From the NCBI RefSeq assembly GCF_000733845.1, contig NZ_JPOI01000001.1, positions 1,279,501 to 1,343,500 of the forward strand: a stretch of 64,000 nt of DNA, read 5' to 3'. This DNA is from Geobacillus vulcani PSS1 (GTDB lineage: Bacteria; Bacillota; Bacilli; Bacillales; Anoxybacillaceae). Position numbers and translations under genes: made by a program. The notes under the pieces are model-generated. The model saw nothing but the letters and a program-made list of their open reading frames with translations, was not told the DNA's origin and did not search any database. Shown here piece after piece: positions 20,995-22,185 of the stretch; position 1 is the first letter of the stretch; each line of letters opens with the position of its first letter.

Positions 20995-21810
20995 ATGCGA
21001 ATCAACCACAACATCGCGGCGTTGAACACGTATCGCCAACTGACGATCGGTCAAGGCGCCGCAGCGAAAAACATGGAAAAACTGTCTTCCGGTCTGCGCA
21101 TCAACCGCGCGGGCGACGACGCAGCAGGTCTGGCGATCTCCGAAAAAATGCGCGGGCAAATTCGTGGGTTGGAGATGGCTGCTAAGAACTCGCAAGACGC
21201 GATCTCGCTGATCCAAACAGCAGAAGGGGCTTTAAATGAAACACATGCAATCCTTCAACGTATGCGCGAGTTAGCAGTGCAAGGTGCGAACGATACAAAT
21301 ACAACTATAGATCGCAATAATATACAAGATGAGTTAAATCAATTGATTGCGGAAATTGATCGGATTTCTAATACAACACAGTTCAACACTCAAAACTTAT
21401 TAGATGGTTCATTTACAGGTACATTCCAAGTCGGAGCAAATAATGGTCAAATTATTACTTTTAGCATTGCTACAATGAACTCATCTGCACTTACTGTTAC
21501 TACTAGCGCTATTTCTGTGGCTAACAATGCGTTGGCAAGTACAGCAATTCAAAATATTGATAACGCAATTAATGCTGTATCGAAAGAACGTTCAAAACTC
21601 GGGGCTCTTCAAAATCGTTTAGAGCACACTATCAACAATTTGTCGACTTCTGCAGAAAACTTAACAGCTGCAGAATCTCGTATTCGCGACGTAGATATGG
21701 CCAAAGAAATGATGGAGTTTACGAAAAACAACATTCTTACTCAAGCAGCACAGGCGATGTTGGCTCAATCAAACCAACTGCCGCAGGCGGTGTTGCAGCT
21801 GCTTCGGTAG
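20995..21810 (+). CDS. hag: Flagellin (reading of the unspliced message)
   Basis: 271 residues with the conserved flagellin ends: [20 protein letters not shown], then [20 protein letters not shown] at the N-terminus, and [20 protein letters not shown] through [11 protein letters not shown] at the C-terminus. The central variable domain is very short. ATG 20995 follows AAGGAGGAAGAG. The first 200 bases and the last 60 are GC-rich, but from about 21200 to 21740 the gene is clearly AT-rich, so it is a mosaic. A group I intron begins within the last codons or just after; splicing would replace the tail after LAQ by a second, equally good C-terminus encoded at 22141-22185. Confidence 0.93.
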   Translation: [271 protein letters not shown]

Positions 21811-22144
21811 GCTGGTTTGGCGGGCGTCTTAGCTGGAAACGGCTAAGAGGATGACTGGGTGAATTGCTGGGAAGCCCTGAGAGCCTTTGGCGCCACAACG
21901 GAGCTGGAAACGGCAGACGTGAGGGCGGAAAAAGCCGAAGGATTGGGCAATCAGCAGCCAAGCTCCTGTCCCGAAAGGGTGGAGAAGGTTCAACGACTAG
22001 GGCATACCACCTACGGCGAGTGCTATGGTGATGAAGCCCGTAGGGGAGGCCGAGGCCGACCCGAAGCGCCCAGCCCCTAACAGGTGAAGCTGAGGGTGAA
22101 GATGTAGTCTACACAACGTTCGAAAGACGTTGCGGCATGGCAAG
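21766..22144 (+). ncRNA. Group I intron in the flagellin gene
   Basis: The conserved core elements stand in the right order: GGTGAATTGCTGGGAA (21858-21872), GGGCAATCAGCAGCCAAGCTCC-type P3/P4 strand (starting about 21945), GGTTCAACGACTA (21987-21999, with the P7 strand GACTA) and AAGATGTAGTC (22099-22109, with the P7 partner TAGTC). A P2 hairpin CTTAGC/GGCTAAG (21829-21847) and a P9 hairpin CAACGT/ACGTTG (22114-22132) frame it. There is no homing endonuclease gene. The exact splice sites are uncertain by a few bases. The best fits by reading frame are after GCT (21765) with exon 2 at CAA 22141, or after T 21769 with exon 2 at 22145. Confidence 0.88.
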
Positions 22145-22185
22145 CCAACCAACAACCGCAAGGGGTATTGCAATTACTCCGTTAA
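22141..22185 (+). other. hag: 3' exon of hag (second flagellin C-terminus)
   Basis: This stretch reads [14 protein letters not shown] and stop TAA, the canonical flagellin end, in a frame that is only reached by splicing. It parallels the unspliced tail [14 protein letters not shown] codon by codon, with most differences silent but with AT-rich codon choice. It has no start of its own. Confidence 0.85.

Follow-up and report, generated by a model that had tools for sequence, protein, structure and literature searches.

How self-splicing introns survive in the protein genes of bacteria is an old question, and the flagellin gene hag of Geobacillus vulcani PSS1 raises it in a form for which the sequence itself suggests a possible answer. 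In the window (the whole stretch of 64,000 nucleotides that was analysed), hag starts at position 20995 on the + strand, and positions 20995-21807 match the Pfam families PF00669 and PF00700. The genes upstream of it, at 18587-20806, resemble flgL, fliW and csrA by eye and are presumably these genes. FlgL, fliW and csrA are the usual neighbours of hag. Beyond the gene, an inverted repeat followed by a run of T (22193-22228) looks by eye like the hag terminator. The gene has two ends: the read-through frame carries a full flagellin tail with its stop at 21810, and a second tail lies at 22141-22185. An initial annotation had attributed this arrangement to a group I intron with a complete flagellin C-terminus on both sides. 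Why should an interrupted gene possess its last codons twice?

The intron and its boundaries

The presence of the intron and of a full tail on either side of it was confirmed. The covariance model RF00028 matched positions 21795-22132 of the + strand at 67.4 bits (gathering score 50; E 6.1e-15); the 3' strand of P7, GAAGATGTAGTC, lies within this match at 22098-22109. With boundaries drawn by comparison of relatives, the intron comprises 375 nt (21766-22140, + strand, as for all features below) and interrupts hag between the codons GCT and CAA, 14 codons ahead of the stop. The 5' exon (20995-21765), delimited by its open reading frame, the Pfam matches and, at the 5' splice site, the comparison, ends in ATG TTG GCT (M-L-A). 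The 3' exon (22141-22185), recognized from the comparison of relatives and from the joined reading, consists of 14 codons and a stop. The first 45 nt of the intron (21766-21810) are a spare copy of this entire 3' coding exon, again 14 codons and a stop, in frame with the 5' exon. The spliced and unspliced products are of equal length and identical up to MLA, with a 14-codon tail each.

Several splice sites appeared possible by eye from the window alone. They were settled by comparing the window with 19 other loci of its family; of these 20 loci, 19 showed the 3' exon and one stood at a contig end. The 5' splice site was placed after U21765 (GCU|CAA), and the GCT directly precedes the spare exon in all 115 distinct spare-bearing loci, in agreement with the start at 21766 that had been proposed. 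The 3' splice site falls after G22140, so that the intron ends in G, as group I introns do. This terminal G (omega G) was kept in 19/19 of the same-family loci showing the 3' exon, the window counted among them; the pattern of the later survey itself demands it. With these sites the spliced tail first read from the window was correct, and the alternative spliced tail LAQSNQQ was not supported.

Other pairs of sites were considered by hand. The pair U21769/G22144 was discarded, and the intron taken to start at 21766, since position 21769 is G in three loci (G018, G030 and G035) and 22144 is T in one (G017). The pair U21779/G22139 would add a tandem tail and finds no support in conservation. A 5' site near 21803, put forward as a way of joining the two tails in tandem, was not supported: the sequence there is not kept in same-family relatives, and the predicted fold places P1 elsewhere. 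The P1 drawn at 21795 by the Rfam alignment is likewise not kept in these relatives and is absent from the fold.

The minimum-energy fold of 21757-21850 (-47.1 kcal/mol, z -4.77) pairs GCUC at 21763-21766, the 5' strand of P1 (GCU|C), with GGGC at 21822-21825, its 3' strand and the predicted internal guide sequence. U21765 at the 5' splice site then faces G21823 in the U.G pair expected of a group I intron. The 5' strand is GCT in 115/115 spare-bearing loci, and GGGCGTC was found in 114/115 of them. P1 proper comprises only 4 bp. It is prolonged by an extension in which 21769-21776, the spare codons that follow the first Q, pair with 21813-21820, directly after the spare stop codon; a P2 hairpin follows at 21827-21848. 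The codons of the spare exon thus make up the P1 extension and its loop, as had been suggested from the window. With the chosen sites P10 looks weak by eye, about 1 bp.

The pairing of the extension was examined further by exchanging partners between loci. Over 95 distinct pairs, the duplexes had a mean of -6.87 kcal/mol with their own partner and -4.11 kcal/mol with foreign ones. The own-partner value was matched by none of 10000 permutations, a figure weakened by related loci sharing partners. We relied on this test of duplexes because the pairing register varies among loci (in distance classes with at least 12 loci, 59-78% of cells are paired), so that a clean pair-by-pair count of covariation gave mixed results and was set aside.

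Occurrence of the spare exon

In order not to look only where a spare exon exists, the survey used a motif blind to the 5' end of the intron, made of the 3' strand of P7 and the start of the 3' exon. Among 397 genomes of the order it matched 75, and among 398 of the class 42; the two sets overlap, and some of the matches are, by their letters, evidently due to chance. Left out were G076, G285 and G043:C35 from the order and G590, G733, G623, G670, G778 and G624 from the class. Over all collected loci the motif gave 132 distinct matches, some of them in loci obtained by searching with the read-through flagellin protein, a route biased toward genes with a complete tail. A 5' exon could be detected in 124 of them, and an in-frame spare exon was present in 118 of these 124. 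For the other eight (L166, L176, L192, L201, L204, L224, L232 and L237) the motif found no 5' exon within 650 nt. L166 stands at a contig end, L176 is a false match, and in L204 the spare exon lies about 1 kb upstream of P7. The locus of L192 (genome G453) shows the 3' half of an intron at this site, hereafter site B, behind an odd upstream sequence, and no flagellin 5' exon was found in it.

When the count was restricted to loci from whole genomes, found by the survey motif, RF00028 or the window's own DNA, the spare exon was present in 109 of 114, in 47 GTDB genera and 28 families. Its length equals that of the locus's own 3' exon in 114 of 115 distinct spares. The protein search added a Clostridiaceae metagenome-assembled genome (L042) and an unclassified Firmicutes one (L047), both with a spare exon. 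The spare exon at this site is not a local oddity.

Apparent selection on the two tails and the proposed fate of the unspliced message

The initial annotation had held that both tails look selected as protein. The spare exon was compared with the 3' exon of the same locus over VLQLLR, with one locus drawn per genus label (55 labels, some lineages being entered under both their GTDB code and their NCBI name) and results averaged over 200 draws. On average 211 codons differed synonymously, 7 non-synonymously and 112 were identical, where a neutral simulation with the same amount of change gave 55 synonymous and 172 non-synonymous codons; sampling one locus per label reduces the effect of kinship on these means and does not remove it. 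Within VLQLL of the spare, second codon positions are near-invariant and third positions vary. In 52 of the 55 genus labels the spare and its own 3' exon end in the same residue, be it R, Q or G, an agreement that none of 10,000 shuffles equalled. Gene conversion between the two tails was considered and rejected: the codon identity of the spare is 0.36 to its own exon and 0.33 to the exons of other genera, indicating that recombination is not what keeps the two tails alike. The real 3' exon behaves in the same way between genera, 0.90 of its codon differences over VLQLLR being synonymous.

Each of the two tails thus appears, by these codon patterns, to be under selection at the protein level, as had been claimed, and this holds widely among the genera sampled, beyond the window. 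If a single message were translated, one tail would be free to decay; both are kept, and both messages appear to give a selected protein. The same annotation had expected the intron to be neutral to flagellin whether or not it splices. This describes well the effect to be expected of a spare exon, but selection on the spare as protein implies that the unspliced product matters.

We propose that the group I intron supplies a spare flagellin end and that both messages are used, a reading that we consider very probable as a whole. Splicing of the RNA would join the real 3' exon to the rest of hag. If ribosomes come first, the spare exon would be translated and they would stop in the P1 region, releasing a flagellin of the same length. 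The first spare codons would pair next to the guide sequence and the remaining ones fill the loop of P1, and the cell would use the spliced and the unspliced product alike. Ribosomes that translate across a splice site can disturb splicing, and stop codons in frame within introns have been seen as a remedy (as discussed in PMC3984707). A plain early stop would yield a flagellin lacking its conserved C-terminus; the intron of hag would instead provide for the unspliced message. Both messages encode complete proteins as judged from sequence, and we infer that splicing, and translation of both, take place in the cell.

Three other explanations of the two tails were weighed. The first, which we regard as rather unlikely, is that they define two regulated isoforms: temperature or growth would set how much of the message is spliced, and the resulting flagellins would have different functions. 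Residues 1 and 4 of the spare do differ from those of the exon, in 92 and 105 of 115 loci respectively, and Hayakawa and Ishizuka (2012, via PMC4853749) are cited for flagellin introns whose splicing depends on temperature and affects motility. However, these residues lie in or beside the P1 extension, where pairing can explain their change, whereas VLQLL hardly changes; that both ends share VLQLL and a host-specific last residue points to their equivalence. The second explanation, that the intron is dead, never splices and leaves the spare as the real C-terminus with a relic downstream, would account for the decayed or odd tails in a few matches without a 5' exon (L201, L224 and L232). It is highly improbable in view of the 115 distinct spare-bearing loci, in which the downstream tail is an open frame of 14 codons with a flagellin end. 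The mostly silent changes of the 3' exon and the kept catalytic core also argue against it, as does the self-splicing reported for flagellin introns, going by titles in the reference list of PMC3984707. The last one, that the spare persists solely for its RNA structure in the P1 loop and its coding content is a relic of the intron's origin, can draw on the pairing of its first codons in the P1 extension and is scarcely credible given the near-invariant second positions of VLQLL and the excess of synonymous over non-synonymous change.

Our preferred reading, a spare end used when splicing does not come first, may be set beside what is known of other introns. Flagellin genes of thermophilic bacilli have already been reported to contain group I introns, as the initial annotation noted (Hayakawa and Ishizuka 2009, 2012, as referred to in PMC3984707 and PMC4853749). 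The introns of Geobacillus stearothermophilus and thermophilic Bacillus belong to the same class of element in the same host gene; titles and citing passages in these two papers describe self-splicing and temperature dependence, and PMC4853749 states subgroup IA2 for a flagellin intron. Within the literature searched, which extended to papers citing Hayakawa and Ishizuka 2009 and 2012 and did not reach these two themselves, neither a duplicated tail nor a degradation tag was mentioned. A report cited in PMC4853749 describes flagellin introns whose splicing varies with temperature and favours motility in the warm, so that the intron may keep flagellin low in cool cells. Should that intron carry a spare exon, this would speak against splicing being optional. 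Another parallel is C.te.I1 in a surface-layer gene of Clostridium tetani (as described in PMC3919590), where the unspliced transcript also encodes an isoform and splicing swaps the end of the protein. C.te.I1 is, however, a group II ribozyme with four alternative downstream exons and distinct isoforms, whereas the spare exon of hag copies the one real exon. In Clostridium difficile, with its c-di-GMP-controlled group I intron (Lee 2010, via PMC3984707), the outcome of splicing also alters what is translated, but it does so by way of a riboswitch, at the ribosome-binding site, and no duplicated exon is described for this intron in the citing passage.

Introns without a spare exon and related forms

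In six introns of the site-B survey no working spare exon was present (L033, L164, L205, L217, L258 and L269), which shows that the spare is dispensable. In L164 (genome G340) it carries in-frame stop codons and represents a natural decayed spare; L258 lacks a spare and an early stop alike. The unspliced frames of the other four (L033, which by its junction reading lies a few bases upstream of site B, L205, L217 and L269) end in EMAA, LLVA, QIAA and QVA, so that four of the six read-through frames end in -AA or -VA. The spare-less introns occupy separate places on a tree of 198 intron cores, with 6 changes, at least 4 of them forced; the tree was made by a quick method, and 106 of its 195 inner branches are below 80.

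Similar endings are common at a second flagellin intron site, site A, which lies 23 codons upstream of site B and is occupied in 70 of 397 genomes of the order; the window contains no site-A intron. The loci examined are part of those listed for the order: of 80 matches, 76 had a 5' exon, and in L226, L237, L282 and L294 the motif found none. A spare exon at site A would need 37 codons, and none was seen among the 76 introns. Their read-through frames end in -AA in 71 cases, in -VA in 4 and in -AV in 1, and 48 of the 76 end in YALAA followed by the stop. The tmRNA tag of the host genome is GKQNYALAA, and the tmRNA tags detected by ARAGORN in 22 of 30 further genomes all end in -AA. YALAA is thus common to the host tag and to these 48 frames; unlike the tmRNA (ssrA) tag, which is added in trans, the ending of the flagellin introns is encoded in cis by the intron. 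The idea that the read-through tag tracks the host's own tmRNA tag was dropped, as variant endings at site A (for example YAEAA) are no copies of the tags. No -AA or -VA ending occurred among 35 rows (34 places, one being present twice) of same-family group I intron matches taken as non-flagellin, a control that was picked by eye from the stronger RF00028 matches, the weaker ones being left out, and that includes a few rows without a clear frame.

From these patterns we infer that in spare-less flagellin introns the unspliced frame mostly ends in a tmRNA-like degradation tag, by which truncated flagellin would be destroyed. The flagellin introns of Firmicutes would then hold two provisions for an unspliced message: a spare exon where the exon is short, at site B, or a cis-encoded tag where the exon is long or the spare absent, at site A and in some introns at or near site B. 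We incline, slightly, towards this two-part scheme. The sequence evidence for the spare half is strong; the tag half builds on a regular pattern in related introns, with recognition of the ending, by ClpXP or a similar protease, presumed.

The competing view, that the -AA and -VA ends stem from RNA pairing or shared descent and not from selection for a degradation tag, has a substantial chance of being correct, somewhat below even. The Ala-Ala codons of site A lie partly in a stem, in which the GCYGC part pairs, and pairing could explain part of their constancy; on the core tree, moreover, the site-A introns fall almost together (2 changes). Against this, both Ala codons keep GC as their first two bases in 71/76 while the third bases vary, often with matching changes in the stem, and Ala-Ala persists in several cases where the stem is altered. 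In introns at or near site B, whose stems are different, the frame likewise ends in LLVA, QIAA, QVA and EMAA.

If the reading with two provisions is true, splicing would be optional or safe to fail, and this would explain how the intron persists in a heavily translated gene: the intron itself would supply the missing protein end, in a copy that selection has seemingly kept readable across dozens of genera. The fate of unspliced bacterial messages becomes directly testable at such loci. If annotation pipelines do not splice, the flagellins in databases would end in the tail of the intron and not in that of the exon.

Several loci carry further forms of these introns. In L114, L115, L096, L100, L102, L103 and others, tandem flagellin introns at sites A and B flank an exon of 69 nt, an arrangement in which exon skipping would be possible. 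The site-A core in two Geobacillus genomes is 86-88% identical to the site-B core of the window. L224 (genome G399) contains a hybrid intron with a site-A-like start (YALVA followed by a stop) and a site-B 3' exon end, which apparently arose by deletion between two tandem introns. The intron with a spare exon in L204 (genome G473, 430-1620) also contains a LAGLIDADG endonuclease reading frame (PF03161, E 1.4e-19), which makes homing of spare-bearing introns plausible; L204 is possibly a mobile form of the element. A phage search returned 55 records, none with 80% query coverage and the best listed with 45%, and no source was found among them. The host genome contains a second, weaker group I intron match of 34.6 bits (G000:C1:2041481-2041747, locus L002). 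By eye, this intron interrupts a ribonucleotide reductase-like gene, and its read-through frame ends in EQGGSR followed by a stop, as it does in several relatives.
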